A stretch of DNA of 64,000 nucleotides from Meiothermus luteus (lineage in GTDB: Bacteria; Deinococcota; Deinococci; Deinococcales; Thermaceae): positions 1 to 64,000 of the forward strand of contig NZ_QWKZ01000001.1 in assembly GCF_003574085.1 (NCBI RefSeq). Reading direction: 5' to 3'. A program made the translations under genes and the position numbers. How positions within the stretch are numbered: the stretch's first letter is position 1; each line of letters begins with the position of its first letter. Under the pieces are notes generated by a model. The model did not search any database, was not told the origin of the DNA, and saw only the letters and a list, made by a program, of their open reading frames with translations. This document shows, in pieces, positions 13,352 to 26,909 of the stretch.

Positions 13352-13879
13352 ATGAAAACCTATGCTGGGGTAGGAAGCAGGCGTGCGCCCGAGGATGTGC
13401 TAAAGCTGATGGGGAAGATTGCCCGGCGGCTGGCGGAGCGGGGCTGGGCGCTGCGAACGGGTGGGGCAGAAGGGGCTGACCGGGCGTTTGAGCGGGGGGC
13501 CCGTGCGGGCGGTGGAGCAGTTGAGGTGTTTCTGCCGTGGCCGGGATACAACGGCTACCGGGAAGGGGCGCTGAAAGCCCCGAGCCCGGAGGCGGTGCGG
13601 CTGGCGGCAGCATTGCATCCGGCCTGGGGGCGTCTGTCACCGGCGGTACAGCGGTTGATGGCCCGGAACTCCCACCAGATCTTGGGGCTCGACCTGAACG
13701 ACCCGGTGGCCTTCGTCCTCTGCTGGACACCGGACGGGGCCGAGTCGGAGCAAGAATGCGGGCCGGAAACTGGTGGCACGGGGCAGGCGATCCGGCTGGC
13801 CTCGAGGTGGGGCGTGCCCGTGGTCAACCTCAAAAGAGAGGACGCGTTGGAGAAGATAGCTCGGCTGGTCAAGGGTTGA
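13352..13879 (+). CDS. SLOG-fold (DprA/LOG-like) protein
   Basis: A 175-residue Rossmann-like SLOG protein. The 'YAGVGSRRAPEDVL' start, 'RTGGAEGADRAFERGA' loop and 'GTGQAIRLASRWGVPVVNL' end are the nucleotide-binding features. Phage and plasmid members are annotated as DprA-like or YspA-type; they bind a nucleotide ligand of unknown identity. Start ATG 13352 is where family similarity begins. First gene of the hairpin-punctuated series, with copy 1 right after its stop. Confidence 0.72.
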   Translation: MKTYAGVGSRRAPEDVLKLMGKIARRLAERGWALRTGGAEGADRAFERGARAGGGAVEVFLPWPGYNGYREGALKAPSPEAVRLAAALHPAWGRLSPAVQRLMARNSHQILGLDLNDPVAFVLCWTPDGAESEQECGPETGGTGQAIRLASRWGVPVVNLKREDALEKIARLVKG

Positions 13880-13906
13880 ACCAGGGGGCGGCAGGAGCCG
13901 CCCCCC
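13879..13906 (+). repeat. Intercistronic hairpin, copy 1 of 12
   Basis: AACCA followed by a perfect 9-bp stem GGGGGCGGC/GCCGCCCCC with loop AGGA, directly overlapping the stop of the SLOG gene and leading into the next small gene. Confidence 0.85.
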
Positions 13907-13916
13907 TCCGGTGGGC

Positions 13917-14132
13917 ATGAAAACGCTAGCGATCACCATCGGGGTCTTCAGGAATCAGGTCTATGCCTACCGGCTGCGCCAGGCCGAGGAGCGGGTGCGC
14001 CTCGAGCTCGGTCTCAAGGGGAGTGGGGGGTGGGACTGGCGGCCCTGGAAGGAAGGGGCGCTGGAAGAGATGCGGATGCTCTACCAGACGCTTCAAAGCT
14101 ACGACCGGGGGCGGTGGCTGAAGACGGAGTAG
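13917..14132 (+). CDS. Small hypothetical protein (71 aa)
   Basis: Not recognised. A basic, mostly helical 71-residue protein beginning 10 bases after hairpin copy 1; there is no clear Shine-Dalgarno, so expression may depend on coupling to the upstream gene. It is followed by the 13-bp inverted repeat at 14133-14183. Confidence 0.5.
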   Translation: MKTLAITIGVFRNQVYAYRLRQAEERVRLELGLKGSGGWDWRPWKEGALEEMRMLYQTLQSYDRGRWLKTE

Positions 14133-14183
14133 GGTTCTTGCCCCCCTTGTTGCTTTTGAGTGGGTAGCGAGGGGGCAAGAACC
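14133..14183. repeat. Inverted repeat GGTTCTTGCCCCC-N25-GGGGGCAAGAACC
   Basis: 13-bp perfect arms with a 25-base loop, no trailing T-run. The same CTTGCCCC/GGGGCAAG design, also with a 25-base loop, recurs at 18680-18726, and in weaker form inside the repeats at 45483 and 52753. A protein-binding or recombination site is as likely as a terminator. Confidence 0.65.
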
Positions 14184-14228
14184 ACACTGTATTGCTCTGC
14201 CGTGGTATCCTGTTACCAGGAGGTAACT

Positions 14229-15401
14229 ATGATCAGCACGGCAGTTTGGGCAAACCGTATACAGGCAGCTCTGGGGCGTGAGCCTCGGAGCGTTCAGGAG
14301 GCCCTCGAGGGTTTGAGGGTGGTTCTCAAGGAGGACGGGGTGAAGCGGGAGTTCTACCAGGCTGCGCGGGAAAATCAGCGCTTCGAGCGTTTCTCCCGTG
14401 ACGACAGGGTTGCCCTCATTGTCTGGGCAGCCTTGAAGGAGGCTTTGGAGAAGACCCGACGCCTCGGCCAGAAGACCCCCTCCACGCTGGTCGTTCGTAA
14501 GGACGACTCGGTAAAGGAGGAGGTCAAAGGGGTCGTCAAGGCCATCGGCACCTGGAAAGGCCCGGACAAGGTGTACGAGGTGTTCCCGTGGGACACTAAA
14601 GTAACCTTGCGGAAGGGGGCGGAGATCAACCACCCCCAGTACGGTAAGGGCTATGTCCAGGAGGTGAGCGACCGCCACGCCCTGGTGCGCTTCAAAGCGG
14701 GCCCCAAGAAGCTCGCGTTGAAGGCCGCCAAAGGGATGCTGGTGGACAGGTACGCCCAGGCCCCCGACCGCCGGGTAGCCGACGCGAAGGGCTGGCTCGA
14801 GCGGTTCCTCTCTTCCGGGGAGGAGATTCGCAGCTTGAGCCGCCTGGAGCGGGAGGAGGAACTCGGGGGAAACCCCCACTTCTCCGAAGGCCTCATCTCG
14901 CAAGAGGTGGTGGAGCGGCTGGAACGCGCAGGCTACCGCATAGACCCCTACAGCCTTGAGGGAGTAGATTCCCTGGTGGACTCCCTCCCCGCCAGGGAAG
15001 AGAAGTTCAAGGAGGGTGTCCTGGGGATCACTATCCTCAGAACCCGTGACGGCAAGGCTATCGGCTTCCGCAAGCCCGGCTTGTGGGAGACGAAAGTCGC
15101 TCCTGACGCAGGGCAGGAGAGCTTTGCAGCGCTCGTCGAAGCGCAGATGGCCTACACGGCTCTGACGGAGATGCTCCAGGGAGAAGAGGGCTGGTCGGTG
15201 AGCGAGGTGCGTCCGCACCTGAGCAAGCTGGCTAAAGCCCTTCAAAAGGCAGATGCCCGGCGGCTCTTTGATCTCTTGCAAGAGGTCGCCGCCCTCCGCT
15301 TGCTCAAGGCGGAACTGCATCGCGCCGGATTTGCCCCCGTTAGAGCCGTCGCTTACCGCGACTCGAGCGGGGAAGTTGTGTACACCGCTCCGGTGTACTA
15401 A
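14229..15401 (+). CDS. Hypothetical protein (390 aa)
   Basis: Not recognised. Start set by AGGAGG 5 bases before ATG 14229. The N-terminal ~90 residues are helical; residues about 125-180 resemble a small beta-barrel ('GAEINHPQYGKGYVQEVSDRHALVRF', KOW/SH3-like); the rest is helical with many Glu/Arg. No membrane segment or catalytic motif. It is the largest unknown in the small-gene series and has its own promoter-proximal inverted repeat. Confidence 0.65.
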   Translation: MISTAVWANRIQAALGREPRSVQEALEGLRVVLKEDGVKREFYQAARENQRFERFSRDDRVALIVWAALKEALEKTRRLGQKTPSTLVVRKDDSVKEEVKGVVKAIGTWKGPDKVYEVFPWDTKVTLRKGAEINHPQYGKGYVQEVSDRHALVRFKAGPKKLALKAAKGMLVDRYAQAPDRRVADAKGWLERFLSSGEEIRSLSRLEREEELGGNPHFSEGLISQEVVERLERAGYRIDPYSLEGVDSLVDSLPAREEKFKEGVLGITILRTRDGKAIGFRKPGLWETKVAPDAGQESFAALVEAQMAYTALTEMLQGEEGWSVSEVRPHLSKLAKALQKADARRLFDLLQEVAALRLLKAELHRAGFAPVRAVAYRDSSGEVVYTAPVY

Positions 15402-15418
15402 GGTAAGCGTCCTTTTTG

Positions 15419-15458
15419 CCTCTCAGGGAAAGTCCTTTTCTCTGAGGGGTTCCTTTTT
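15419..15458 (+). terminator. Terminator with conserved TCCTTTT loop
   Basis: 10-bp stem (15419-15428 with 15440-15449), loop AAAGTCCTTTT, then TTCCTTTTT. Relative to 264-304, stem pairs 5 and 8 change C-G to T-A and A-T to G-C, which conserves pairing. It also directly precedes the ribosome-binding site of the next gene. Confidence 0.7.
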
Positions 15459-15467
15459 GGAGGGAAT

Positions 15468-15902
15468 ATGAAGGTAGTCTGGCGTCGCAGGTTTCCCTGG
15501 CACGAGCAGGCCTGGTGTGATGTGGATGTGTACCGGCTGGGGTTGCACGTCCTGGTGGTTCTGCGGGATCAGAACGATCACGAGGGTACCAGCGTGACCA
15601 ACGCCCTCGAGATCGTGGCCCGGCGGGTGCGCGAGCAGATACTGGCCCCCGAGGGGCTGGAGGGCCTCGAGGTGCACTGGGTGGAGTGGAGCCGCACCGA
15701 CGGGGTAGCCAGCGTAGTCTCGTTCGCGGATGAGGAGTGCTTCGAGGGCCCCCAGTGGCAGTACCTCCACCCGGCAGAGTTCCAGAAGATCCTGGCCGCC
15801 TTCGAGGCCCCGGACCAGCTCGAGGCGTGGATCCGGGAGGGGGCGCTTGACCTGAAAGGGTGGGAGGAGTCCAGAGGAGAGCCCCGCAGCCGGGGCAACT
15901 GA
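15468..15902 (+). CDS. Hypothetical protein (144 aa)
   Basis: Not recognised. An acidic alpha/beta protein with a GGAGG leader 7 bases upstream. It contains many Trp and Glu residues and no Cys cluster beyond two isolated Cys. It lies between the conserved-loop terminator and hairpin copy 2. Confidence 0.6.
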   Translation: MKVVWRRRFPWHEQAWCDVDVYRLGLHVLVVLRDQNDHEGTSVTNALEIVARRVREQILAPEGLEGLEVHWVEWSRTDGVASVVSFADEECFEGPQWQYLHPAEFQKILAAFEAPDQLEAWIREGALDLKGWEESRGEPRSRGN

Positions 15903-15929
15903 GGCGTTTGTTCCGCTGTGAAGGGGCGA

Positions 15930-15960
15930 ACCAGGGGGCGGCCAAAGCCGCCCCTTTTCT
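15930..15960 (+). repeat. Intercistronic hairpin, copy 2 of 12
   Basis: ACCAG, 8-bp stem GGGGCGGC/GCCGCCCC, loop CAAA, then TTTTCT; 15 bases later comes the leader GAGGAGG of the ArdC-like gene. Confidence 0.88.
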
Positions 15961-15978
15961 TTGAGCGAGGAGGTAGCT

Positions 15979-16779
15979 ATGAAAGCCGACGCGCTTATGG
16001 AAAGCATCAAGGGCTGGGTGGAGCAGCTCGCCGCTGAACTCCAGGAGGGGCAGACCCAGGGGTTCCTGGCCTTCCTGGAAAAAGCGGGCCGCTTCCACCG
16101 CTACAGCGCGAGAAACGTCCTGCTCATCCACCAGCAGCGCCCGGAGGCCACCCTGGTGGCGGGAATGAAGCGCTGGAACGAACTGGGGCGGCGCGTGAGG
16201 AAGGGCGAGCGGGGCATCGCCATCCTCGCGCCGAGCCTGAAGCGGGTGGAGGTGGTGGACGAGGAAACCCAGGAGGTGCGGGAAGAGCGGAAGCTAGTGG
16301 GCTTCCACACCACCTACGTCTTCGACATCGCGCAAACCGAAGGCGAGCCGCTAAAGCCCCAGACAGAGGAGATCCCCCAGGGGCCCGCGCTGTACGCCCG
16401 GCTCAAGGTGGTCTGCCCGGTGGGGGTGCAGGAGGGATTGCTCCCCGGCGGGGCGCTGGGCAAGACCAACGGGAAGCGGATCGTGCTGGCGGCGGATCAG
16501 GGCTACACCAGCAAGGCCGAAACACTCCTGCACGAGTGGGCCCACACCCTGCTGCACTTTGGGGGAATGAACCTGCCCCGGGAGGTGGAAGAACTCGAGG
16601 CCGAGGCGGTGGCCTACGCCGTGGGGCGGGAGCTCGGGCTGCCGATGAGCACCAGCCGGGACTACATCCTGCACTGGCGAGGAACAGTTGAGGCGCTCGA
16701 GGCCTCCCTCGAGCGCCTCCAGGAGGTTGCTCGTCAGATTCTCTCTGCTATAAAGAGCAGACTAGAAGCAGCCGCCTAA
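15979..16779 (+). CDS. ArdC-like antirestriction protein with zinc metallopeptidase domain
   Basis: A 266-residue protein with the ArdC N-terminal ssDNA-binding domain ('RYSARNVLLIHQQRPEATLVAGMKRWNELGRRVRKGERGI', residues about 40-80) and a C-terminal metallopeptidase-like domain with zinc site 'HEWAHTLLH' and a downstream Glu. ArdC proteins protect incoming plasmids from host restriction during conjugation. Start ATG 15979 follows GAGGAGG. Its presence argues that this element moves between cells and faces restriction, such as the type III system farther along. Confidence 0.88.
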   Translation: MKADALMESIKGWVEQLAAELQEGQTQGFLAFLEKAGRFHRYSARNVLLIHQQRPEATLVAGMKRWNELGRRVRKGERGIAILAPSLKRVEVVDEETQEVREERKLVGFHTTYVFDIAQTEGEPLKPQTEEIPQGPALYARLKVVCPVGVQEGLLPGGALGKTNGKRIVLAADQGYTSKAETLLHEWAHTLLHFGGMNLPREVEELEAEAVAYAVGRELGLPMSTSRDYILHWRGTVEALEASLERLQEVARQILSAIKSRLEAAA

Positions 16780-16785
16780 AACCAG

Positions 16786-16826
16786 AACCAGGGGGCCTCC
16801 CGCCGCCGGAGGCGGCGGTGCCCCCT
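16786..16826 (+). repeat. Intercistronic hairpin, copy 3 of 12
   Basis: ACCA followed by outer stem GGGGGC/GCCCCC enclosing a second stem CCGCCGCC/GGCGGCGG, then TTCCTTCTTC; a two-storey version like copy 6. Confidence 0.85.
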
Positions 16827-16848
16827 TCCTTCTTCTGAGGAGATAGTT

Positions 16849-17067
16849 ATGAAAGAGATCGTTCTGTTGCTGTTGACCCGAAAAGGTCTAGCCCGCTGCA
16901 AAGTTGTGCTTGCGGAGGGGAAGACCATTATCCTGTCCACTCCAGCAGGCAGGGTGGGGTTCCCCCGCTGGGCGCTCATCCCGGAAGGGGCCCATTACCG
17001 GGTCTCGTGCCGCTATGAGATCGATCCCCAACAGGAAAGCCGCCTTGAGTCGGCTCTAGGACTATAA
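16849..17067 (+). CDS. Small hypothetical protein (72 aa)
   Basis: Not recognised. Beta-rich, basic 72-residue protein with leader GAGGAG 8 bases upstream. It follows hairpin copy 3 and precedes a degenerate gene. Confidence 0.55.
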   Translation: MKEIVLLLLTRKGLARCKVVLAEGKTIILSTPAGRVGFPRWALIPEGAHYRVSCRYEIDPQQESRLESALGL

Positions 17068-17072
17068 GCATG

Positions 17073-17333
17073 ATGCCGACATTGAGCCTCGAGCGGTGGG
17101 CCCGGTTGGAGGGCCGGGTCTGCTGGGCCGAGGTGAGCGGGGTGATTCATAGAGGTCTGCGGAGCATTACCGGCAGGAAGCCCTCACCACTGAGCGGGAG
17201 TGCCGGGCCCTGGTGCAGATGGGGCTGATCAGGGAGCCCGGTGAGCCCAGCCTCGAGGATCGCCCAGGGTCACCCCGACAATGGGTCGGTGCAGGCGGCC
17301 CGGCGGGTGCTGGAAAAGCGCAGCCAAAGGATG
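17073..17333 (+). pseudogene. Degenerate small gene
   Basis: Coding-like segments occur in three frames: 'LSLERWARLEGRVCWAEV' from the ATG at 17073, then 'HYRQEALTTERECRALVQM' and then 'DNGSVQAARRVLEKRSQR'. They look like one ~85-residue gene broken by two frameshifts. It ends at hairpin copy 4, as intact members of the series do. Family unknown; the reconstruction is tentative. Confidence 0.35.
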
Positions 17334-17357
17334 AACCAGGGGGCGGTACCGCCCCCT
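17334..17357 (+). repeat. Intercistronic hairpin, copy 4 of 12
   Basis: AACCA plus the perfect 18-bp palindrome GGGGGCGGTACCGCCCCC, followed by TTCCTTG and then AAAGGAGG of the next gene. Confidence 0.88.
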
Positions 17358-17380
17358 TCCTTGTTTGTAAAGGAGGACAT

Positions 17381-17785
17381 ATGAACTGGGTAGCTTCAGC
17401 AACGGTACTGATAGGCAAAAGAGGGCTTGAACTGCTTAAGCAGCGGTCGGAGGCCCTGAACAAACTGGTGGGCTGGGAAGCCCAGGGTGAGGTGGTGCCC
17501 GGTGGCTACGTGCGGCTGCACCTGCCGGGCTGCCCGGAGGGGTCTGTGTGGTGGATCGCAGAGCTGCTCGAGGCCTTCGTGATGGAAGTGGGGCCGGACT
17601 CGGGCGGGCCCGGAGTGGGAGGGGCCTTCCTGGATGGATGGTATACCTACGAGGTGATGCCGTTCAACTTCACGCGGCTGGCCGAGGTCTATGACCGCTG
17701 GAAGGCCCAGCACCCGGCTTTCGACGACCCGGAAGAGGGCCTCGAGGCGGTAGAGGCGATTCTCGAGCAAGCCCAGCGGGACTAA
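17381..17785 (+). CDS. Hypothetical protein (134 aa)
   Basis: Not recognised. Start ATG 17381 follows AAAGGAGG. The protein is acidic and mixed alpha/beta, with a Gly-rich mid-section ('GPDSGGPGVGG') and a helical C-terminus. It lies between hairpin copies 4 and 5. Confidence 0.6.
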   Translation: MNWVASATVLIGKRGLELLKQRSEALNKLVGWEAQGEVVPGGYVRLHLPGCPEGSVWWIAELLEAFVMEVGPDSGGPGVGGAFLDGWYTYEVMPFNFTRLAEVYDRWKAQHPAFDDPEEGLEAVEAILEQAQRD

Positions 17786-17794
17786 ACAGGCGGA

Positions 17795-17827
17795 GAACCA
17801 GGGGGCGGCTTCTGCCGCCCCTTTTTG
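17795..17827 (+). repeat. Intercistronic hairpin, copy 5 of 12
   Basis: AACCAG, 8-bp stem GGGGCGGC/GCCGCCCC with loop TTCT, then TTTTT: a textbook terminator shape. Confidence 0.88.
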
Positions 17828-17846
17828 CATGGGCGAGGTGATTGCA

Positions 17847-17990
17847 ATGGGCAAACACAAGGCTTTGAAGCATCTAGCGCGGGGCCATGAGTTGGGCATG
17901 GGGCGCAGCACCCAAACCCACGGCGATAAGCGGCAGAAGCGTTTACGCACCCGTTCGGCTCGTCTGCGGGCGGCCTTACGGGACGAGTAA
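17847..17990 (+). CDS. Very small basic protein (47 aa)
   Basis: ATG 17847 has a GAGGTG leader 6-7 bases upstream. The product is strongly basic (many Arg, Lys and His; 'GHELGMGRSTQTHGDKRQKR') and could bind nucleic acid. Position between copies 5 and 6, with the same hairpin-RBS-ATG spacing as its neighbours, is the main evidence that it is real. Confidence 0.5.
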   Translation: MGKHKALKHLARGHELGMGRSTQTHGDKRQKRLRTRSARLRAALRDE

Positions 17991-17992
17991 GA

Positions 17993-18044
17993 GCCAGGGG
18001 GCGGCCTCCCGCCGCCGGAGGCGGCGGCGCCGCCCCGCTTCTTT
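17993..18044 (+). repeat. Intercistronic hairpin, copy 6 of 12
   Basis: GCCAG, outer stem GGGGCGGC/GCCGCCCC and inner stem CCGCCGCC/GGCGGCGG, then GCTTCTTT and GATGAGGTG before the next ATG. Confidence 0.85.
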
Positions 18045-18057
18045 GGATGAGGTGATT

Positions 18058-18237
18058 ATGCAGATCGAACTCAGCGAAAAAGAAGTCAAGGCCTTGCTGG
18101 AACTCCTCAAAGAGCACCTGCACTACGGATGGATAGAGCAGGACGGTGAGTTTGAGGTGATCTCGAGCGGGCAAGTCTCGGCCACGCTCAGGGAGCTTTA
18201 CCGGCGCCTCAAAGGGGGTCAGGCCAAAGCGGCCTAG
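18058..18237 (+). CDS. Small hypothetical protein (59 aa)
   Basis: Not recognised. Helical, with 'LSEKEVKALLELLKEHLHYG' at the N-terminus (an amphipathic helix). GAGGTG leader before ATG 18058. Bracketed by hairpin copies 6 and 7. Confidence 0.55.
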   Translation: MQIELSEKEVKALLELLKEHLHYGWIEQDGEFEVISSGQVSATLRELYRRLKGGQAKAA

Positions 18238-18264
18238 CACCAGGGGGCCATCCGGCCCCTTCCT
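18238..18264 (+). repeat. Intercistronic hairpin, copy 7 of 12
   Basis: CACCAG, stem GGGGCC/GGCCCC with loop ATCC, then TTCCTTCTTCTGAGGAGG. Copies 7 and 9 share the loop. Confidence 0.85.
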
Positions 18265-18282
18265 TCTTCTGAGGAGGGCTTT

Positions 18283-18678
18283 ATGCCGATTGACTTAGAG
18301 GGCGAACGCAAGCGGGCGGTGCGGGCGCTGGACAACCTGCTGTGGCGCATCCAGGAGGCGGAGCGCGACCTCGAGCGGGCCCAGGCGCGGGTGGAAGGCC
18401 TCTTCCCCATGCGAGTAGTGTGGAAGAAGAAAACCTGTGGGAAGAACGGTTGCCGCTGCACTCGAGGGGCGCTACACGGGCCGTACCCGTACCTGATCGA
18501 GCACCGCGATGGAAAGAAGGTGGAGCACTACCTGGGCAAGGGGTGGAGCCCACCCGAGGGGATGATCGCCCCTGAGCGCTACCACGCCCTGATGCGGGAG
18601 TTCAGGGAAAAGCGGGAGCGGGCGGAGCGGCTGATGGATCGGCTGTATCGGGTGGTGGAGATGATGCGGGGCTGGTAG
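18283..18678 (+). CDS. DUF6788-like protein with CxxxxCxC motif (131 aa)
   Basis: Two coiled-coil-forming helical ends flank a small metal-binding-like core 'TCGKNGCRCTRGALHGPYPYL' (about residues 51-70), the signature of DUF6788-type proteins often found near transposons and phages. Function unknown. ATG 18283 follows GAGGAGG. It ends one base before the inverted repeat at 18680. Confidence 0.68.
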   Translation: MPIDLEGERKRAVRALDNLLWRIQEAERDLERAQARVEGLFPMRVVWKKKTCGKNGCRCTRGALHGPYPYLIEHRDGKKVEHYLGKGWSPPEGMIAPERYHALMREFREKRERAERLMDRLYRVVEMMRGW

Positions 18679-18679
18679 C

Positions 18680-18726
18680 TTTCTTGCCCCCTTGTGCAGT
18701 ATCCAGGTGTGTCGAGGGGCAAGAAA
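18680..18726. repeat. Inverted repeat TTTCTTGCCCC-N25-GGGGCAAGAAA
   Basis: 11-bp perfect arms, 25-base loop beginning CTTGT and ending CGA like the copy at 14133-14183. It marks the end of a run of rightward genes. Confidence 0.65.
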
Positions 18727-18855
18727 CCTCCCTTCTGAAATCCGATAAGGTGAGTTATAGCAAGCATGGGTTGCCTAGAAAGCAGCGGAGCGTACCCACG
18801 CTAGCGTATCTGACCGCTGGCGTAGTTACCGCGAGGATAGAGAAGGGAGCTCTGC

Positions 18856-19248
18856 TCAGGGCTGCCTTACACGCTCAAAACGCTTGTCCAGTTCTTTGAA
18901 AACGAATTCGATCAGGTCAGTGTAACTACCGCTGCCGGTCACGTAAGTCACCCCTCCGGCGCTATACAGGGTGAACACGGCACGAAAGACAACCCGCCCG
19001 AATAAAAACGTGGAACCTACGTTCTGCGCGTTGTCAAGTTGATAGACGACCTCTCCAGGTCTGACAGAGAGAAGCCGCAGGACTGCCAGGTCGCGGTTAT
19101 AAGGGTGATTGGGGGCGACCTCTAAAATCGCTCGCTGAACCTCGTCCTGTGCCGCCTTGTAGACAACCGGTTTACCAGCATCGGAAGGAGCAGGAGCACA
19201 AGCCGATAAGATCGCTACCAGGAAAACAATAAAAAAAGCCTTTTGCAT
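18856..19248 (-). CDS. Lipoprotein (130 aa)
   Basis: N-terminal signal peptide of about 15 residues ending in a lipobox 'ILSAC', so the Cys should be lipidated and the protein membrane-anchored outside the cytoplasm. The mature part is beta-rich and unrecognised. GAGGTAGACT leader precedes the ATG. It is the only leftward gene in this stretch and breaks the hairpin-linked series; AT content is higher than its neighbours. Confidence 0.72.
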   Translation of the reverse strand: MQKAFFIVFLVAILSACAPAPSDAGKPVVYKAAQDEVQRAILEVAPNHPYNRDLAVLRLLSVRPGEVVYQLDNAQNVGSTFLFGRVVFRAVFTLYSAGGVTYVTGSGSYTDLIEFVFKELDKRFERVRQP

Positions 19249-19433
19249 AGTCTACCTCTACCCTGTTATCTTTCTATTATATCGGCAGCGAACGCAATAG
19301 AAAAAACCTGCCTGTTCTAACTGCCGAACACCCCACACCCCTACTGCCACACCGAGAGACAAAAACGGGGGTTCCAGGAGAACTACCCCCCTCCATAAGG
19401 GCTACCGACCCTGAACCGATCCTCATTCCGATA

Positions 19434-19454
19434 AAGGGCCATCCGGCCTTTTTG
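19434..19454 (+). terminator. Hairpin related to copies 7 and 9 but lacking the ACCAGGGG lead
   Basis: AAAGGGCC, loop ATCC, GGCCTTTTT: the same inner stem-loop as copies 7 and 9 with a different outer stem, then a GGAG leader and ATG 19488. Confidence 0.6.
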
Positions 19455-19487
19455 CTGCTGTAAGAACCTGATAGGAAAGGAGAAAAC

Positions 19488-19850: not shown

Positions 19851-19888
19851 GAGAGTTCTGAAAAAACGTCCCACTTACCCCCTCCTGA

Positions 19889-19956: not shown

Positions 19957-19963
19957 GGTGAAC

Positions 19964-20286: not shown

Positions 20287-20309
20287 CTTATTTGGATGAG
20301 GTGACTGAA

Positions 20310-20489: not shown

Positions 20490-20502
20490 ACAAGGGGGAG
20501 AT

Positions 20503-21510: not shown

Positions 21511-21539
21511 CACCAGGGGGCCATCCGGCCCCCTTTTTG
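21511..21539 (+). repeat. Intercistronic hairpin, copy 9 of 12
   Basis: CACCA, 7-bp stem GGGGGCC/GGCCCCC with loop ATCC, then TTTTT: begins at the stop of the clamp gene. Confidence 0.88.
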
Positions 21540-21555
21540 ACTGTGGGAGGTCTAT

Positions 21556-21783
21556 ATGAAAAAAACCCTGAAGTTTCCCCGCATAGAGCTTTCCTACCTG
21601 GACAAGGCCCCCGACCACGGGCAACCGGAGCTTGCGGTGGTTTTTCCCCAGCGCAAAAGGAACCGCATCGTCCCTGTAGCGGTAGGGGAACAGGCCACCC
21701 AGCTTTGGAAGCACCCCCTGAGCGAAGAGGAGTTCCTGGCCCTGGTGGATCATGCCACGGAAGAGAAGCTGGTATCGGCTTGA
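21556..21783 (+). CDS. Small hypothetical protein (75 aa)
   Basis: Not recognised. Leader GGGAGG 6-7 bases before ATG 21556. Its 3' end overlaps the start of the candidate initiator gene by 32 bases in another frame, implying translational coupling to replication genes. Confidence 0.58.
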   Translation: MKKTLKFPRIELSYLDKAPDHGQPELAVVFPQRKRNRIVPVAVGEQATQLWKHPLSEEEFLALVDHATEEKLVSA

Positions 21784-22438
21784 AGCCCATCGGTTGCGGG
21801 AGGTGCTCGAGCGGCTCTCGCTGAAAGACGGGCTTTTGCTCTGGGAGGCCCTGGGGGAAGACCCTGGGGCCTTTCCTTTAGGGAACCCCGAGGCCCGGCG
21901 GCAGGCGATGCACCGGATAAAGCGTGACAGAGTGTCACAGGGAATCGCAGGAAACCCCGTGACAAAATGTCACACGCCTTTGCGTGCTGGAGAGAGAAAA
22001 CCCCTTGCGAAAAGAGAGAAACCACGTGACAAAGTGTCACAGGAAAACAAGCGAAACAAAGCAGGCTCTCGCTACCCCGACCCTGCCGGGTCGCTGGCCC
22101 AGGAGCTAGGGGGCTGGCGGGCGGGGCTTTTGTACCGGGCCCGCAAGGAGCAGAACGCGCTGATCCAGCGGTTAGCCCAGCAGCACAAGGAGAGCCTGCT
22201 GGAGCTGCTGAACCTGGTGGAGTCCCTGCCACTAGCCAAGCGCGTCCCCACCACCCTGGCCTGGTTGGAGGAGTTCGCCAGCGAGATCGAGCGGTTAGGG
22301 GACGAGGCCGTGCGGCAGGTGCTGCTCGAGGTGAGGAAGAAGGCCCCCGACCAGCCGCTCTTGTACGCCCGGCGGGTGCTGGCGGGGCGGGGAAAGAAGG
22401 AGGAGAAGACATGGACAGCGACCGGCGAGCAGTTCTGA
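21752..22438 (+). CDS. Candidate replication initiator containing internal palindromic repeats
   Basis: A 228-residue basic protein, not recognised by family. The N-terminal ~55 residues could be an HTH ('YRLEAHRLREVLERLSLKDGLLLWEAL'), followed by a low-complexity Lys/Arg linker that encodes three GTGACA-N3-TGTCAC palindromes, then a helical C-terminus. A gene carrying its own repeats and followed by a helicase loader is the layout of lambda O-P, so I infer an origin-binding initiator. It overlaps the loader gene by 28 bases. Start ATG 21752 lies inside the previous gene. Confidence 0.5.
   Translation: MPRKRSWYRLEAHRLREVLERLSLKDGLLLWEALGEDPGAFPLGNPEARRQAMHRIKRDRVSQGIAGNPVTKCHTPLRAGERKPLAKREKPRDKVSQENKRNKAGSRYPDPAGSLAQELGGWRAGLLYRARKEQNALIQRLAQQHKESLLELLNLVESLPLAKRVPTTLAWLEEFASEIERLGDEAVRQVLLEVRKKAPDQPLLYARRVLAGRGKKEEKTWTATGEQF
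21924..22040. other. Candidate replication origin: three GTGACA-N3-TGTCAC palindromes
   Basis: Exact copies at 21924-21938 (spacer GAG), 21959-21973 (AAA) and 22026-22040 (AAG). Spacings of 35 and 67 bases put copies 1 and 2 in different reading frames, so the conservation is not for protein sequence. The intervening DNA is A-rich against a GC-rich background, suitable for unwinding. Confidence 0.6.
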
Positions 22439-23202
22439 ACCTTGCCCCTGTGCTCGAGGCCCTACGCTCCAAAGGGGGGCAAGAAGTGGCCCACGACCCC
22501 AGCCTACCCCCCTGCCCTTTGTGCGGCGCGGCGGCCCTGGCCGGGTACACCTTCGAGCGGCCCAGCCAGATCGAGCACGACTGCGACTGTGGCTACCTCG
22601 AGCCCGCCCAGTACCAGACCGCCTTGCTCGCCTCATGGCGGCTGTGGAAGGCCCCGCAGTTTTTGCGGGCTGATCTTGCGGGCTACCCCCGCTACCGGGA
22701 GTATCTGGAGCGCCCCCTGGAGGCCCACAGCGGCAACAAGGCCGCCATCGAAGCGGCCCGGCGCTACCAGGGGGGCTTGCTGTACCTCTACGGCCCGCCG
22801 GGGGTGGGCAAAACCCATCTGGCCCTCAGAATCGCGGCCCGGCTGGTGGCCGAAGGACGGTTCGTGCGTTTCAGGAGCGAACTCGACTTCCTGGCCGAGG
22901 AGCGGCTGGCAGCGGCGGGAGAGGGAACCTTGCCCCAGTATGAGCGCCTGGTGCTCGACGACGGGGGCAAGACAAGGCTCACCCCCTTCACCTTAGAACG
23001 CCTCTACGCCCTGGTGGAGCGCTCGAGCGCGGGCGGGTGCGACCTCATCATCACCTCCAACCTGTCCCCCGAAGCCTACGCCGCCCGGTTAGGCGAGGTG
23101 GGTGAGGCGGTGCTGTCGCGCATCCAGGGCGGGGTGGTGGTGGAAGTGCAGGGGCCAGACAGAAGGGCCAGGGGGCCTTCGGCCCCACCTGGTGGGGTAT
23201 GA
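22411..23202 (+). CDS. DnaC-like helicase loader ATPase
   Basis: A 263-residue AAA+ protein with an N-terminal Cys cluster ('CPLCG...CDCGY', about 30-62), Walker A GPPGVGKT (about 128-135), Walker B 'LVLDDGG' and sensor 'LIITSNL'. DnaC/DnaI/lambda-P-type loaders place the replicative helicase at an origin. GGAGGAG leader inside the initiator gene. The last codons encode hairpin copy 10, and the stop overlaps the next ATG (ATGA). Confidence 0.85.
   Translation: MDSDRRAVLNLAPVLEALRSKGGQEVAHDPSLPPCPLCGAAALAGYTFERPSQIEHDCDCGYLEPAQYQTALLASWRLWKAPQFLRADLAGYPRYREYLERPLEAHSGNKAAIEAARRYQGGLLYLYGPPGVGKTHLALRIAARLVAEGRFVRFRSELDFLAEERLAAAGEGTLPQYERLVLDDGGKTRLTPFTLERLYALVERSSAGGCDLIITSNLSPEAYAARLGEVGEAVLSRIQGGVVVEVQGPDRRARGPSAPPGGV
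23166..23190 (+). repeat. Intercistronic hairpin, copy 10 of 12, inside a coding end
   Basis: GCCAG, stem GGGGCC/GGCCCC with loop TTC, then ACCTGG. It lies within the last 13 codons of the helicase loader, so the motif is kept even where it must be translated. Confidence 0.75.
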
Positions 23203-23315
23203 ATCTACAAGAAGTGGTCGCGTTGACGGCGGGCGGGGTCTTTATCATCTTTGGCGGCTTCGCCCTGCTGGTGGCGCTGGTGGAGGAGGTGATTTTTCGA
23301 TGGAAGAGAAAGTGA
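23199..23315 (+). CDS. Small single-pass membrane protein (38 aa)
   Basis: ATG overlaps the loader stop (ATGA). Residues 7-28 ('VALTAGGVFIIFGGFALLVALV') form one transmembrane helix, followed by a basic cytoplasmic end 'FRWKRK'. The stop overlaps the next gene start. No family recognised; tight coupling on both sides supports it. Confidence 0.5.
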   Translation: MNLQEVVALTAGGVFIIFGGFALLVALVEEVIFRWKRK

Positions 23316-23824
23316 ACATCCTGCAAAAAGCCCAGGAACGGGTCAGCCCGGAAGCCGCCCGGCTGCTAGAGGAGCGGGCGCGGAAGGGCCTCGAGACCTA
23401 CGGCATGACCCTGGACGAAAATCAGGCCCCTCTGGAGGAACGCCTGCAGCACGCGCTGGAAGAAGCCCTCGATCTACTCCAGTACCTGGAGTGGGCCAGG
23501 GAGGTCGCGCCGGAGGGGTTGGAGGCGCAGCTGGACGAGCTATGTGTGTTCGCCGCTGAGATAGCCAACGTCCTGGCCCGGATCAACGCGGATGAACCGC
23601 CCGACGACCCCGGCGAGTGGGTGGAGTGGCGCGACCTGGAGGGCCCGACCTGCCCACAGAGTTCTAGGCACCAGGGGGCGTCGCCGCCCCCTTTTCTTCT
23701 TCTGAGGAGGAACGCTATGAAAAACATCCGCGAACGGATCGAGGGTTTTCTGAGCCGCCTCGAGCGGGCTGAGGCCATCCTGTTAGACGGCCGGCTACAC
23801 CGGGTGGAGGATCACAACAGTTGA
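23300..23824 (+). CDS. MazG-like nucleotide pyrophosphohydrolase, frame open into the next gene
   Basis: Start ATG 23300 follows GGAGGAGGTG. Residues about 20-75 carry the all-alpha NTP-pyrophosphatase pattern ('RKGLETYGMTLDENQAPLEERLQHALEEALDLLQYL', with ExxE). Such enzymes hydrolyse (d)NTPs and occur in phages. The frame has no stop before hairpin copy 11 and continues through it into the SWIM-gene frame. A one-base shift near 23640 would end the protein at TAG 23663-23665, just before the hairpin as in all other members, so the true C-terminus is probably there. Confidence 0.65.
   Translation: MEEKVNILQKAQERVSPEAARLLEERARKGLETYGMTLDENQAPLEERLQHALEEALDLLQYLEWAREVAPEGLEAQLDELCVFAAEIANVLARINADEPPDDPGEWVEWRDLEGPTCPQSSRHQGASPPPFLLLRRNAMKNIRERIEGFLSRLERAEAILLDGRLHRVEDHNS
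23669..23696 (+). repeat. Intercistronic hairpin, copy 11 of 12
   Basis: CACCA, 7-bp stem GGGGGCG/CGCCCCC with loop TCGC, then TTTTCTTCTTCTGAGGAGG. Tail identical in style to copies 3 and 7. Confidence 0.88.
23717..23824 (+). pseudogene. 5' part of a SWIM zinc-finger gene split by IS607
   Basis: After GAGGAGG, ATG 23717 opens 'MKNIRERIEGFLSRLERAEA...GRLHRVEDHN', the usual lead-in of SWIM proteins, then meets a stop two codons later at the IS607 left junction. The matching second half, starting 'HTYVVRGSQNYLVDLEKETC', lies at 25983-26189 past the element. Confidence 0.7.
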
Positions 23825-23859
23825 CGTTTAGCGTACATTACTTTACATTATAGCCTATT

Positions 23860-24468
23860 ATGGATTTGCTTCTCCTCACCGCCCAGCAGGTGGGAGAGCG
23901 CTATGGCCTCCACCGCAACACCCTGTACGCCTGGGAGCAGCAGGGGCTCCTGCATCCCGTCCGCACCCCCGGGGGTCGCAGGCGGTACCGCAGGGACGAG
24001 ATCGAGCGGCTTCTCACCCTGGAGTCCCTGCCGGTCCAGGCCGAGTCCAGGCCCCGCACCGTGCTGTACGCCCGGGTGAGCACCCGGAAACAGGAACCCT
24101 TCCTCCAGGCCCAGGTAGCCCGTCTGGAGGCCTTCGCCAGGGAGCAAGGCTGGGACTGCGAGGTGGTGGCCGAGGTGGCCAGCGGGGTCAACGAGAACCG
24201 CCGGGGACTTCTCAAGGTGCTGAACCGGGCCAGGAGGGGTGAGCTGGACCGGGTGGTGGTGGAGTACGAGGACCGCCTGGCCCGTTTCGGGCTCGGGTAC
24301 CTGCGCGCTTTCCTGCAAGCTTTTGGCGTGGAGCTGGTAGTCCTCAACGGCAAAGAGAGGAAGGAGCTCGGAGAGGAGCTGGCCGAGGACCTGGTGGCTA
24401 TCGTGGCCAGCTTCGCCGCCCGGATCTACGGGAAGGGGGATTCTGGTGAGGAGACGGGGCAAGGCTGA
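23860..24468 (+). CDS. tnpA: IS607 transposase TnpA (serine recombinase)
   Basis: A 202-residue protein with an N-terminal MerR-like HTH ('TAQQVGERYGLHRNTLYAWEQQGLL') and a C-terminal resolvase domain with catalytic Ser in 'YARVSTRKQ' and Arg-rich 'EYEDRLARFGLGYL'. It makes and rejoins the breaks that move IS607. Length and domain order are normal, so it is probably active. Its 3' end overlaps tnpB by 23 bases. Confidence 0.93.
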   Translation: MDLLLLTAQQVGERYGLHRNTLYAWEQQGLLHPVRTPGGRRRYRRDEIERLLTLESLPVQAESRPRTVLYARVSTRKQEPFLQAQVARLEAFAREQGWDCEVVAEVASGVNENRRGLLKVLNRARRGELDRVVVEYEDRLARFGLGYLRAFLQAFGVELVVLNGKERKELGEELAEDLVAIVASFAARIYGKGDSGEETGQG

Positions 24469-25999
24469 GGGTTACCAGGGCGTCCAGGCCCGGCTGGTCT
24501 TCCCTGAGCGGGAGGACGAGAAGGCGGTTCTGGATCTGATGCGCCGCTTCTCTGCGGCGAAGCGGTTCGCCTACAACCGGCTTTTAGAGGGCAGGACCCG
24601 GGAGGAGCTCAAGCGTCAGGACGGGCCCCTCTGCCCCCGCTTCCGCCTCAACACCCGCTACGCCGACGAGGCGATTGAGAAGGCCCAGGGCGTGCTGGAC
24701 TCCGCCCGGGAGCTCGGAAAAGACCCCTGCAAGGTGGTCTTCGGAGGGAGGAAGCTTTTTGAGCAGCTAAAGCGCCAGCACCTCTCAGGCAAAGATTGGA
24801 AGCGCCTGAAAAGGGAGTGGAAGGAGAAGCGCCAGGGCCTGCTCTATGCCCGGGGCGACGGGAGCAAGGGGGGCAACCTCAACCTCCGGCTGCTGGTGAG
24901 GGCAGGAGCCCTCTGGCTCCGGGTGAACCTGGGGGACGGAACTTACGCCCAGGCCCTGGTGAGGACGGGCCACCCTAACTTGGATAAGCTCCTGGAGCGG
25001 GTTCACGTGGGGCTTCCCTACAACGTGGGGCTCTCCCTGAGGGAGGGACAGGTCCAGGCCCACTTCACCTGGCCCGAGGAGCTTCCCCCTCCCACCCACA
25101 CCAAGGAGAACGGGATGCTGGGGATAGACGTGAACGCCGACCCCTACCACCTCGCTCTCGCCGTGGTCTCTCCTGAGGGGAACCTCGCCCGCTACCTGAC
25201 CCTTCCCCTGGAAGAGGTGGACTTCGCCCCCAACAAGGGAGCTAAGGAACTCCTCCTCTGGAAGGTCGCCCACCAGGTGGTGGCCCTGGCGGAGGAGCAC
25301 GGGGTAGCCGTCGCCACCGAGCGGCTCAAACACCTCCGCAAGACCCATAGGGGGGACGGCTCAGGCCGGGCCTTCCGCCGCAGGCAGCACCGCTTCGCTT
25401 ACCGCTCCCTCTTGCAGAAGATTCACGCCCTGGCCCGAAAGCGGGGTGTAGAAGTCTTAGAGGTCAATCCGCAGGACACCTCCAGCATCGGGATGCTGAA
25501 GTACGCCCCCTTGCTCTCCCTCTCCAAAGACATCGCGGCGGCCTATGTGATCGGCCGGAGAGCCCTGGGCTTCACCGAAAAGCTCCCCAAGGGCTACGGG
25601 GCCCTTCTCCGGGACGAGGGCTTCCTCGCCCAGGCCGAGGGGTTCCACCAGACCCGCCTCCGGGAGCTCCAGAAGCTCAAAGAAACTGAGAGGAACCCCT
25701 ACCTCAAGCGCAAGCTTTCCCGGGAGATGGGAAAAGCCAGGCGCTCCCTGAACCTCGTCCAAAGCCTTCGGGGCTCGCCAGGGAGCCGGAGTGGGTCAAC
25801 CGAGGGAAGGAACCCTTCCGGCATCAATCCCTGGCGGGTCCTGAGGGTAGGCCTTTTCCTTCCGTTCCTCGGGCGCGAGGTGCCGCGAGACCTCTCGCCC
25901 CTCAAGCCCTTCCTCCATGGACTGTGGGAGCGGTGGAAAACGAGCCCAGGTCCTCATCCTGGTGGGGGGCCGGAGTGCGCTAATGTGCACTTTTGCTGA
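24446..25999 (+). CDS. tnpB: TnpB-type RNA-guided nuclease of IS607, without the zinc ribbon
   Basis: A 517-residue RuvC-fold protein: first Asp 'MLGIDVNADP' (about 228), Glu 'VATERLKHL' (about 292), last Asp 'LSLSKDIAAAYVIGRR' (about 355). The CxxC...CxxC ribbon expected between the last two is absent, as in the 'TnpB-related' subgroup. TnpB proteins cut DNA guided by an omega-RNA from the element's 3' end, which here would overlap the last ~130 codons. Starts at GTG 24446. All three acidic residues are present, so cutting is plausible. Confidence 0.85.
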   Translation: MRRRGKAEGYQGVQARLVFPEREDEKAVLDLMRRFSAAKRFAYNRLLEGRTREELKRQDGPLCPRFRLNTRYADEAIEKAQGVLDSARELGKDPCKVVFGGRKLFEQLKRQHLSGKDWKRLKREWKEKRQGLLYARGDGSKGGNLNLRLLVRAGALWLRVNLGDGTYAQALVRTGHPNLDKLLERVHVGLPYNVGLSLREGQVQAHFTWPEELPPPTHTKENGMLGIDVNADPYHLALAVVSPEGNLARYLTLPLEEVDFAPNKGAKELLLWKVAHQVVALAEEHGVAVATERLKHLRKTHRGDGSGRAFRRRQHRFAYRSLLQKIHALARKRGVEVLEVNPQDTSSIGMLKYAPLLSLSKDIAAAYVIGRRALGFTEKLPKGYGALLRDEGFLAQAEGFHQTRLRELQKLKETERNPYLKRKLSREMGKARRSLNLVQSLRGSPGSRSGSTEGRNPSGINPWRVLRVGLFLPFLGREVPRDLSPLKPFLHGLWERWKTSPGPHPGGGPECANVHFC

Positions 26000-26189
26000 C
26001 CAGGGGATGCCGCACACCTACGTGGTGCGGGGAAGCCAGAACTACCTGGTGGATTTGGAGAAGGAGACCTGCACCTGCCCCGACCACGCCAGGGGGCACA
26101 CCTGCAAGCACCTGCTGGCGGCGGTGCTGCTGGAGCGGGGGGAGAAGAAGGCAGTTCAGAGAATGAATGAAGCCGTCAAAGCCGCGTGA
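25983..26189 (+). pseudogene. 3' part of a SWIM zinc-finger gene split by IS607
   Basis: Contains the SWIM motif CxCxnCxH ('CTCPDHARGHTCKHLLAAVLL') that binds zinc and DNA or protein. A Met contributed by the transposon end (25983) could allow translation of a 68-residue product. Joining 23717-23820 to this segment gives a normal ~100-residue SWIM protein. Confidence 0.72.
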
Positions 26190-26202
26190 GTATACTGGAG
26201 AC

Positions 26203-26514
26203 ATGGTACTGACCGAGCGGGTGCCCCTGGCCGAGAACGAGGCGGGCGACCTCTACGTAGAGGGTAGCCGGGTCTTCCTGGAAGACTTGGTAGACCTCTA
26301 CCGCCAGGGGTACTCCCCGGAGGAGATGGCCCTGGCCTACCCGGGCCTGGCCCTGGCTGACCTCTACGCGGTGCTGGCTTACGTCCTGCGCCACCCGGCG
26401 GAGGTGGAAGCGTACCTAAAGCGGCAGGGGGTGCGGGCCAGGGAAGCGGAAGAGAAGACCCGGAGTTACCGCTCCAGCGACCTGCGTAAGCGCCTGGAGG
26501 AACGCAGGGAATGA
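26203..26514 (+). CDS. DUF433-type antitoxin
   Basis: A 103-residue protein with the DUF433 HTH ('VFLEDLVDLYRQGYSPEEMALAYPGLALADLYAVLAYVLRHPAEVEAYL'). It typically precedes a DUF5615 PIN-like toxin and neutralises it. TATACT lies 6 bases before the ATG, with GGAG between, so the mRNA may be nearly leaderless. Overlaps the toxin start by 4 bases. Confidence 0.83.
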   Translation: MVLTERVPLAENEAGDLYVEGSRVFLEDLVDLYRQGYSPEEMALAYPGLALADLYAVLAYVLRHPAEVEAYLKRQGVRAREAEEKTRSYRSSDLRKRLEERRE

Positions 26515-26858
26515 AGCTCCTGCTGGACGAGAATCTGGAGGCCGCCATCCTGCGCGGCCTCCTTCGTCTCTCTCCTGGCCTCGACGTGGTGCGGGTGGTG
26601 GATGTGGGTCTTGCGGGCGCACCCGATCAGGCGGTGCTGGCCTGGGCCGCCGAGCAGGGTCGGGTGGTGGTCTCCAGGGACAGGGCCACCATGAGCCTGG
26701 AAGCGGCCCGGCGGATAGAGTCCGGGGAGCCCATGCCCGGACTGCTGCTCATCCGGCGCAGGGCGAGCGTTGGAGAAGTCCTTCGCGCGTTGGAGTTGAT
26801 CCTGGCGTGTGCTCAGGAGGGCGAGCTCGAGGGGGTCATCGAATACATCCCCTTCTGA
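26511..26858 (+). CDS. DUF5615 PIN-like toxin
   Basis: A 115-residue PIN-fold protein ('MKLLLDENLEAAILRGL', then 'VVVSRDRATMSLEA') with the conserved Asp/Glu positions of the Mut7-C/DUF5615 family, presumed RNases. ATGA overlap with the DUF433 gene gives the standard antitoxin-toxin order. Hairpin copy 12 follows. Confidence 0.83.
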   Translation: MKLLLDENLEAAILRGLLRLSPGLDVVRVVDVGLAGAPDQAVLAWAAEQGRVVVSRDRATMSLEAARRIESGEPMPGLLLIRRRASVGEVLRALELILACAQEGELEGVIEYIPF

Positions 26859-26870
26859 GAAGGGAAAAGA

Positions 26871-26909
26871 GCACCAGGGGGTGGCTTCGGCCACCCCCTC
26901 ACTTTTTTT
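26871..26909 (+). repeat. Intercistronic hairpin, copy 12 of 12
   Basis: CACCA, perfect 9-bp stem GGGGGTGGC/GCCACCCCC with tetraloop TTCG, then TCACTTTTTTT and AAAGGAGG of the next gene. The stem base change (T-A pair in place of C-G) keeps pairing. Confidence 0.9.

Follow-up and report, generated by a model that had tools for sequence, protein, structure and literature searches.

Twelve co-oriented hairpin modules between small genes

The 64,000-nt stretch of Meiothermus luteus DNA analysed here (the window) raises the question of what a short hairpin does when it recurs, always in the direction of the genes, ahead of one small cistron after another. Twelve CCAGGGGG-hairpin modules lie between 13.88 and 26.92 kb, all on the plus strand and co-directional, which is far more than expected by chance and agrees with the twelve-copy family described in the initial annotation. 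Searching both strands of the window for ACCAGGGGG gave 11 exact matches, all on the plus strand, where 1.99 are expected; this count was reached in 0 of 100 shuffles. The match at 22766 is coding sequence with no module, and copies 6 and 10 read AGCCAGGGGG and GGCCAGGGGG, respectively, in place of ACCAGGGGG. The modules and the genes around them are as follows, with the position of CCAGGGGG in brackets.

13880 to 13916, plus strand: copy 1 (13881), 9-bp stem, loop AGGA
14229 to 15401, plus strand: gene following copy 1 and 13911-14132, weak UvrD C-terminal domain likeness
15929 to 15978, plus strand: copy 2 (15931), precedes the ArdC-like gene 15979-16779
16786 to 16848, plus strand: copy 3 (16788), outer and stacked inner stem, precedes 16849-17067
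17334 to 17380, plus strand: copy 4 (17336), precedes 17381-17785
17796 to 17846, plus strand: copy 5 (17798), precedes the small gene 17847-17990
17991 to 18057, plus strand: copy 6 (17994), inner stem identical to that of copy 3, precedes 18058-18237
18238 to 18282, plus strand: copy 7 (18240), precedes the DUF6788 gene 18283-18678
20257 to 20309, plus strand: copy 8 (20259), precedes a small cysteine-motif gene, 20310-20489 (Pfam matches below cut-off)
20503 to 21510, plus strand: sliding-clamp-like (DnaN) protein
21511 to 21555, plus strand: copy 9 (21513), stem-loop like that of copy 7, follows the clamp gene and precedes 21556-21783
21752 to 22438, plus strand: protein without family match, the query for finding related elements
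22411 to 23202, plus strand: DnaC-like helicase loader
23166 to 23198, plus strand: copy 10 (23168), within the 3' end of the loader ORF, ahead of an overlapping start at 23199; weak hairpin
23669 to 23716, plus strand: copy 11 (23671), precedes the start at 23717
about 23860 to 26000: IS607-type element, between copies 11 and 12
26872 to 26923, plus strand: copy 12 (26874), precedes the Rad52-like gene
26924 to 27457, plus strand: Rad52/Erf-like annealing protein

The stems span 6-10 bp and are free of mismatches when G-T pairs are allowed. In copy 10, which as described lies within coding sequence, the hairpin is weak and the minimum-energy fold is a different pairing. The covariation reported between copies 12 and 1 is present as quoted, and the second stacked stem ascribed to two copies was found in copies 3 and 6, above stems of 7 and 8 bp, respectively. 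The AGGAGG said to occupy every gap is found in some; others contain GAGGTGA or GGGAGG, and none is clear in copy 1. This copy is part of a near-identical transferred block that ends at 14132, and is separated by 5 nt from the called start (13911) and by 11 nt from the ATG at 13917. Among the proposed gene functions, those of the clamp, loader, ArdC and Rad52 proteins are supported, whereas neither Pfam nor PHROG yielded a match for the ‘initiator’ (21752-22438), and the ‘MazG’ (23300-23824) has no Pfam match and matches only PHROGs of unknown function (E 0.01). The ORF from 23300 reads through copy 11 to 23824, and the start at 23717 opens what looks like the first part of a SWIM-type gene split by the IS607-type element.

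The modules belong to one family of Thermales elements

A covariance model was built from 31 distinct canonical 44-nt copies, some of which come from the window; it favors stems of 8 bp and loops of 4 nt. Searched under strict filters against the 2.87-Mb home genome, it returned 10 matches, all within the window cluster (copies 9 and 10 were missed, under stricter filters). Because all of the matches sit in one cluster, the modules are not generic host terminators, and the outcome named in the initial annotation as refuting, equal matching of host operons, did not arise. The same module is present in homologous elements of other Meiothermus, Allomeiothermus and Calidithermus genomes and on plasmid pMESIL02. 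In related Thermus plasmids, orthologous genes (Rad52, SWIM) are preceded by hairpins whose sequence differs. A scan of genome contigs, from which records near the window were possibly left out, returned 34 stretches, with more than one match on only three contigs, all from Thermaceae.

A phage origin was considered and rejected, as megablast found no match in 50,697 phage records. Scans of viral contigs for Rad52 and the loader found no relative, and a scan of these with the module pattern gave 56 stretches of a single match each, taken as chance. Against this stands the occurrence of distant relatives of the Rad52-like protein (<60% identity) in 165 phage records; its near relatives (60-80% identity) are in 8 Thermaceae plasmids. 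Recent copying within an element is not supported, as modules of the same element are no more alike than modules across elements: of 1000 shuffles of the labels, 343 and 401 reached the observed within-versus-between difference. Some junctions orthologous to module junctions are without a module, and at the copy 7 junction it is absent in 6/6 other elements having that junction. In the junction comparison that covers Rad52, the Rad52 row of one element (G018a) was excluded, as it starts inside the gene, rows L182 and NEB1569 are unlike the others, and several Thermus rows are near-identical copies.

Most hairpins end at a near-constant distance upstream of the start codon

Hairpins end 17-28 nt before a start codon in 66 of 88 Meiothermus-type and 30 of 48 Thermus-type cases. 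When the 47 modules (of 81) that have both flanking genes called within 60 nt are considered, the median distance is 22 nt; 40 lie at 19-31 nt, and the remaining 7 are copies of copy 1, at 5 nt. Upstream, hairpins of the Meiothermus type usually follow a stop codon closely, the distance between the two having a mode of 4 and a median of 7 nt. Within 60 nt, 15 of the 81 modules have no called start downstream and 24 no stop upstream. Hairpin and gene share their orientation in 85 of the 86 hairpins listed, a few of which are chance hairpins. Counted per gene start, a hairpin at 17-28 nt is found in 66/263 starts of Meiothermus-type elements versus 4/188 chromosomal controls, and in 30/145 Thermus-type starts versus 7/154; these counts are without G008, G001 and G018c (Meiothermus type), L185 (Thermus type) and loci L187 and L188. 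With all fetched pieces and the same controls, the counts are 69/296 (p 4e-12) and 30/171 (p 2e-4), respectively, p values that are optimistic because the elements are related. L185, L187 and L188, three loci fetched for a weakly homologous counterpart of the 21752-22438 protein or for a single match to the model, have hairpins in 0/26, 0/22 and 0/8 cases.

Six further Thermus plasmids have a hairpin at 15-30 nt in 34/59, 9/18 and 2/2 gaps; one precedes Rad52 in 6/6 records and SWIM in 6/6. The modules are confined to one block of small genes: on pTA69 the block has a hairpin in 10/19 gaps, and the first 44 kb, outside it, at 1/38 minus-strand and 1/9 plus-strand genes. Gene calls for the distance, junction, tail, Shine-Dalgarno (SD) and edge counts were made with our own codon-usage caller, and the hairpin and module lists hold chance hairpins, such as the one at 51053 in the window. 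The fixed spacing could also arise because hairpin, tail, SD and spacer are packed closely together. The related elements, covariance search and start distances support a portable, element-specific and RBS-linked module, which bears out the earlier proposal in part.

Pairing is kept while tails and leaders change

At the Rad52 junction, 72/72 cells in 9 sequences are paired and one pair covaries (UA/CG), a result equalled in 7 of 500 shuffles. Pairing in the collected modules is partly by construction because a hairpin was required at collection, and most stem pairs are invariant across copies. The sequence after the hairpin differs between the two types. In 50 of 66 Meiothermus-type tails at least 4 of the 8 nt that follow are T, which makes up 50% of these positions (consensus CTTCTTTG), whereas Thermus-type tails are purine-rich, with 17% T and at least 4 T in only 3/30. 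As the U-tail is common in one type and rare in the other, what both types have in common seems to be a hairpin bordering the RBS on its upstream side, and not a terminator.

The leader preceding the hairpin also differs by group (ACCA versus AGGGCTTG), and where the leader changes from one group to another the hairpin sequence changes with it. CCA itself is part of the search seed, but the preceding A is conserved in 32/38 canonical copies, and several variant hairpins that were detected independently of the seed retain ACC. Sequestration of the SD by the ACC leader was rejected: the leader pairs with the SD 2-3% of the time (it is paired at all about one third of the time), and in 52 modules and 168 control starts the paired fraction of the SD is 0.60 versus 0.50 at 37 °C and 0.49 versus 0.43 at 60 °C. 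Control via SD pairing is not supported, because SD occlusion is not distinctive.

A proposed role as intercistronic RNA punctuation

Judging from sequence, we tentatively favor, at a little under an even chance, a reading in which the module punctuates the mRNA between cistrons in one Thermales mobile element family and serves the stability and insulation of each cistron. The hairpin would mark the upstream edge of each ribosome-binding site in a polycistronic mRNA, where it could protect the downstream cistron from 5'-3' decay and the upstream cistron from 3'-5' decay, and keep translation of adjacent cistrons apart. Shuffled single genes could then be expressed independently, with no need for promoters of their own. 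The U-rich tail of the Meiothermus type may contribute partial termination, and a cognate factor may recognize the group-specific leaders (ACCA and AGGGCTTG). Counted in favor of this reading is that disruption of RNase J was not achieved in T. thermophilus, according to the portion of that report available to us (PMC4229858). The U-rich Meiothermus-type tails (50/66) were counted against it, as they fit termination.

Whatever its role, the module constitutes a clean natural series, with dozens of copies, two sequence types and orthologous genes that keep the hairpin with the tail changed, suited to asking what a hairpin does at the edge of an RBS, a question that the phage SAS/ESAS sequences pose as well. 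As a marker of the small-gene block in plasmids and integrated elements of Thermales, it should aid in finding and delimiting such elements, and the modules are candidate parts for polycistronic expression in thermophiles.

Alternative readings

A possible but less likely explanation is that each module joins an intrinsic terminator or attenuator to an RBS, with downstream expression by leaky or factor-controlled readthrough (antitermination). As in intrinsic terminators, the stem is GC-rich, and the U-rich Meiothermus-type tails are compatible with the terminator-attenuator proposed at first; in the window, a terminator scan flagged 7 of 12 copies in register and another 2 partly, although it listed 24 sites in total where shuffles gave 14.7. 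The product of 14229-15401 also bears on it, since a UvrD C-terminal domain could touch RNA polymerase: residues about 127-167 weakly resemble this domain (E 6e-4). The AlphaFold2 model of this product was not usable for a fold search because its mean pLDDT is only 57.7. However, termination does not seem to be the conserved core, as most Thermus-type copies have no U-tract at orthologous positions (at the Rad52 and SWIM junctions the 8 nt following the hairpin contain no T in any record of the six plasmids), and, unlike terminators, the modules keep a fixed distance to the next start. Moreover, a simple scan listed no promoter-like site between 13.9 and 23.8 kb, and with no promoter in between, some twelve consecutive efficient terminators would leave the distal genes silent.

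It is doubtful that the module instead serves to bind a factor encoded by the element, acting on RNA or DNA, that reads the group-specific leader and uses the hairpin as scaffold. The kept A and ACC, the largely unpaired leader and the joint change of leader and hairpin are what this reading would lead one to expect, but common descent of the copies would yield equal conservation, and the factor is hypothetical.

Improbable, though worth stating, is a function as DNA, in which the hairpins would fold in the single strand that might enter by conjugation, or be extruded from the duplex, and act as small, oriented starts of transcription or priming; the hairpin promoters of the N4 virion polymerase provide the model. 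If true, each anti-restriction or repair gene would be expressed at once upon entry. The fixed start distance and lack of promoter-like sites in the simple scan are compatible with this idea, as is the ArdC and Rad52 context (with SSB too on Thermus plasmids). In single-stranded DNA promoters (Frpo-like), promoter boxes are formed in the folded strand. On inspection the modules are not of this kind, because stems of 6-11 bp, mostly G and C, cannot fit both boxes (definition in part from the available portion of PMC8708921).

A main function as a recombination linker for cassette-like gene exchange is very unlikely. In Meiothermus sp. KatS3mg071 (G012), the homology that ends on the left at copy 7 and the one that resumes on the right of copy 9 share 25 nt within a single module, so the segment between these copies is present or absent between two identical modules, one clear case of gene gain or loss. 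Genes also keep their neighbors less often across modules (same successor 86/306, same predecessor 86/273) than across other gaps of at least 20 nt (112/289 and 112/302). But homology-block edges within 15 nt number 148 for 64 modules and 177 for 75 gaps, with no enrichment at modules, and recombination has no need of strict orientation or a fixed start distance; with edges per boundary equal, the linker is not supported as main function beyond the one clear case. Integron attC cassettes carry attC core sites and adjoin the gene for an integron integrase; the sole integrase seen here is a generic tyrosine integrase at 36187-36936.

That the modules are ordinary host terminators or a dispersed chromosomal repeat can be dismissed almost entirely: the loose pattern CCAGGGGGN{4,34}CCCC does occur 238 times in the home genome versus 56 for a reversed control, but by eye many of the matches listed lack complementary arms, matches to the strict pattern are concentrated in elements like those of the model, and REP/RAYT repeats are dispersed over the chromosome in both orientations, unlike these single-orientation hairpins.

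Comparison with known repeat systems

The initial annotation likened the modules to the start-associated sequences (SAS) of mycobacteriophages. In the available parts of their description (PMC3203893), the SAS and extended SAS (ESAS) of cluster K mycobacteriophages number 11-19 per genome, almost all point the same way, precede starts of genes of different families and are confined to the non-structural half. SAS has no exact copy in M. smegmatis, and the inverted-repeat consensus varies between subclusters. The modules resemble them in copy number, single orientation, diversity of genes and element specificity. They differ in consensus and distance: SAS is the 13-bp GGGATAGGAGCCC, typically 3-7 bp before the start, and its authors see little support for RNA pairing in the inverted repeats, whereas the module hairpin ends about 22 nt away and its pairing is kept.

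Establishment genes of conjugative plasmids of the pLS20 family, including ardC, have repeated, conserved and structured upstream sequences; on p576, the 140 bp preceding ardC contain a pair of short inverted repeats, which its authors say most likely enhance RNA half-life (PMC8708921, as far as available). The modules share a repeated structured sequence ahead of ardC and other genes. In contrast, EGeRS1 covers 400-600 bp before operons and the module about 45 nt between genes, and EGeRS2 is a promoter plus operator, whereas the simple window scan listed no promoter-like site between 13.9 and 23.8 kb.

Cluster O mycobacteriophages contain many 17-bp dyad repeats (PMC4351075, in the part accessible). 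Unlike the modules, about 1/3 of these lie in coding sequence, and they have no clear transcription orientation and are not tied to starts. Common to both are the many copies and the presence or absence of a gene between two repeats, as for Corndog gene 14.

A repeated hairpin is confined to a single element of the M. luteus genome

The window, drawn from a 2.87 Mb draft genome, carries between 13.88 and 26.92 kb twelve plus-strand copies of an intercistronic hairpin formed by CCAGGGGG and a complementary arm, as the initial annotation had proposed, and the sequence ACCAGGGGG occurs 11 times as compared to 1.99 expected. Two details of that annotation likewise hold: a second stacked stem is present in copies 3 and 6, and copy 10 lies within coding sequence at the end of the loader ORF, where its hairpin is weak. 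The canonical module has the 44-nt consensus RGAACCAGGGGGCGGCAGRRGCCGCCCCnCTTCTTTGnGCGAGG, and in variant copies the hairpin is kept with changed letters (ACCATGGGGCGGC in pMESIL02, ACCCGGGGGCGGC and others). The distal stem varies from copy to copy. In an alignment of 31 copies every cell is paired, with CG, UA and AU all occurring at one position, although full pairing is by construction here because the hairpins were selected; at nine junctions preceding Rad52 genes, 72/72 cells are paired, with UA and CG at one position and one GU. The basal GGGG/CCCC is invariant in both alignments and therefore carries no covariation signal. Rfam, searched at the gathering threshold, returned no family over any of the 12 copies, and among the papers listed by searches of an open-licence library none described these hairpins. 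Nearest in kind are the SAS/ESAS repeats (PMC3203893) and the establishment sequences of pLS20 (PMC8708921). Another inverted repeat, TTCTTGCCCCC...GGGGGCAAGAA, forms a separate intergenic family, present at 14133-14186 and about 18680-18730 of the window, and in several relatives only its left half is found before genes of family f14.

The canonical pattern is present in 17 of 50 Thermaceae genomes and is clustered wherever there are several matches. A covariance model built from 31 distinct copies (E 0.01 or better) matches 19/50 of these genomes, nine of them 5-12 times and ten once. All 10 matches in the home genome fall at 13877-26913, which bears out the proposal that the module is specific to the element and not host-wide, and all 7 matches in another genome of the set, G016, lie within 536-546 kb. 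For the protein encoded at 21752-22438, five other genomes contain relatives of 66-86% identity and nine more contain weaker, partial or broken ones (50 searched). The loci around its near relatives hold much of the window gene set together with the same modules, located at some junctions as in the window and at others that differ; the module between families f03 and f14 occurs in the window only and is absent in 6 relatives. Over all loci, 85 of the 86 hairpins listed share the orientation of the genes.

The hairpin lies at a fixed distance from the downstream gene

Both flanking genes were called within 60 nt for 47 of the 81 modules in the set. In these, the distance from stop codon to hairpin has a mode of 4 nt and a median of 7, and the hairpin precedes the start by 19-31 nt in 40/47, with a median of 22 over all 47; the exceptions, 7 copies of c1 (the first copy), lie 5 nt from the start. 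A hairpin ~22 nt before a start is near the upstream border of the initiating 30S footprint. Among recurring overlapping gene pairs, the module occurs only between families f10 and f33 (copy 10 and its counterpart in Meiothermus sp. KatS3mg071). The successor gene is conserved in other elements in 140/251 comparisons of tight pairs without a module, as compared to 86/306 for module pairs.

By one procedure, a hairpin was found at 17-28 nt for 66/263 distinct gene starts in Meiothermus-type elements versus 4/188 in nine 20-kb chromosomal stretches, and for 30/145 in Thermus-type elements versus 7/154 in seven such stretches; counting the pieces first left out gives 69/296 and 30/171, respectively. 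Earlier controls yielded 0/59 around chromosomal dnaN genes and 0/33, 1/21, 2/21, 1/7 and 0/20 in element flanks.

Thermus elements carry a related hairpin with a different tail

Plasmids and contigs of Thermus that carry related genes have hairpins like AGGGCTTG-GGGGCC-NNNN-GGCCCC at the equivalent place, with mostly purine-rich tails. Of the seven Thermus-type Rad52 rows, six have a protein sharing 74-77% identity with that of the window (the NEB1569 row, 35%). In 5/7 the distance between hairpin and Rad52 start is 25 nt, and none of the 8 nt following the hairpin is a T; in all 8 Meiothermus-type rows that could be used this distance is 20-29 nt, and 4-6 of the 8 nt are T. Another six plasmids (T. 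aquaticus pTA69, T. oshimai pTHEOS02 and four from T. thermophilus) were analyzed with gene starts as deposited; the four T. thermophilus plasmids are not independent, because they are close to plasmids already in the set. Hairpins occupy 41/59 distinct gaps in the first four (34 at 15-30 nt), and 13/18 and 2/2 gaps in the last two (9 and 2 at 15-30 nt). In 6/6 a hairpin with 0 T precedes both Rad52 (23-26 nt) and the SWIM gene (26 nt). The distant relatives L185, L187 and L188 have no hairpin at 17-28 nt.

Within pTA69, the Rad52-SSB block has 10 hairpins in 19 gaps. The first 44 kb, which include the secretion system, have one at 15-30 nt before 1/38 minus-strand and 1/9 plus-strand genes; only 10 of these 38 minus-strand genes have a gap of at least 20 nt, and 0/10 have a hairpin. 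According to PMC4605624, pTA69 appears to encode conjugation machinery that comprises a relaxase and a T4SS, and PLSDB types it as non-mobilizable, MPF_T. We infer that the module block is an establishment region of a conjugative family; no Pfam match to a relaxase or T4SS was obtained among the 40 window proteins scanned.

In the Thermus plasmids and contigs L003, L182, L184 and L205, TCTTAGCTACA...TGTAGCTAAGA or its halves recur near starts as an operator-like inverted repeat. On locus L208, the plasmid gene at 1195-1884, which lies before the module block, codes for a protein containing sigma-70 region 3.

A proposed role of the module as punctuation of a polycistronic message

We infer that the module, whose hairpin, orientation, distance, confinement and tail difference are established by these observations, punctuates a polycistronic message. 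No promoter-like site is listed in the window from copy 1 to 23.8 kb, and the genes behind the window hairpins therefore probably depend on readthrough. 5'-3' decay is an activity of RNase J. Since this enzyme is essential in T. thermophilus, as stated in PMC4229858, such decay could plausibly endanger a processed cistron. Two short inverted repeats that precede ardC on p576 are described in PMC8708921 as most likely raising RNA half-life. Sequestration of the ribosome-binding motif by the module and homogenisation of modules within the element were both tested and are not supported.

Gene shuffling and an apparently transferred block

Homology between the window and Meiothermus sp. KatS3mg071 stops right at copy 7 and restarts right at copy 9, and the two ends overlap by 25 nt within one module of the latter genome. 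This segment is a clear case of one deletion or insertion between identical modules. A general test of homology edges at modules versus other gaps revealed no excess.

Loci of Meiothermus, Allomeiothermus and Calidithermus match window positions 1-14132 at about 99% DNA identity along as much as 14 kb (92.6% in genome G020), and identity drops at 14132; this stretch, copy 1 included, is apparently a recently transferred block. Its genes encode a KNTase-C-domain protein (8109-8936), an aldo/keto reductase, a P450-type protein and an ABC transporter. The SWIM-type gene (23717-23824 and 25983-26189) appears split by an IS607-type element, and an ORF from 23300 continues through copy 11. In a CRISPR-like array of the M. 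taiwanensis plasmid pMtWR-220, one spacer (L004, ~6001-6036) is identical over 36 bp to window ~21566-21601, in the gene after copy 9, and the element seems, from this match, to be a CRISPR target.

Other features of the window

1425-1659, HEARO RNA (Rfam RF02033, 100.5 bits)
36187-43858, tyrosine integrase, LexA-like, ImuB/SamB-like, DNA polymerase III alpha-like and SRAP genes, close together

In the protein encoded at 14229-15401, residues 127-167 match chains of the UvrD C-terminal domain (E 6e-4); a structure model has strands there, with a block pLDDT of about 50-85.
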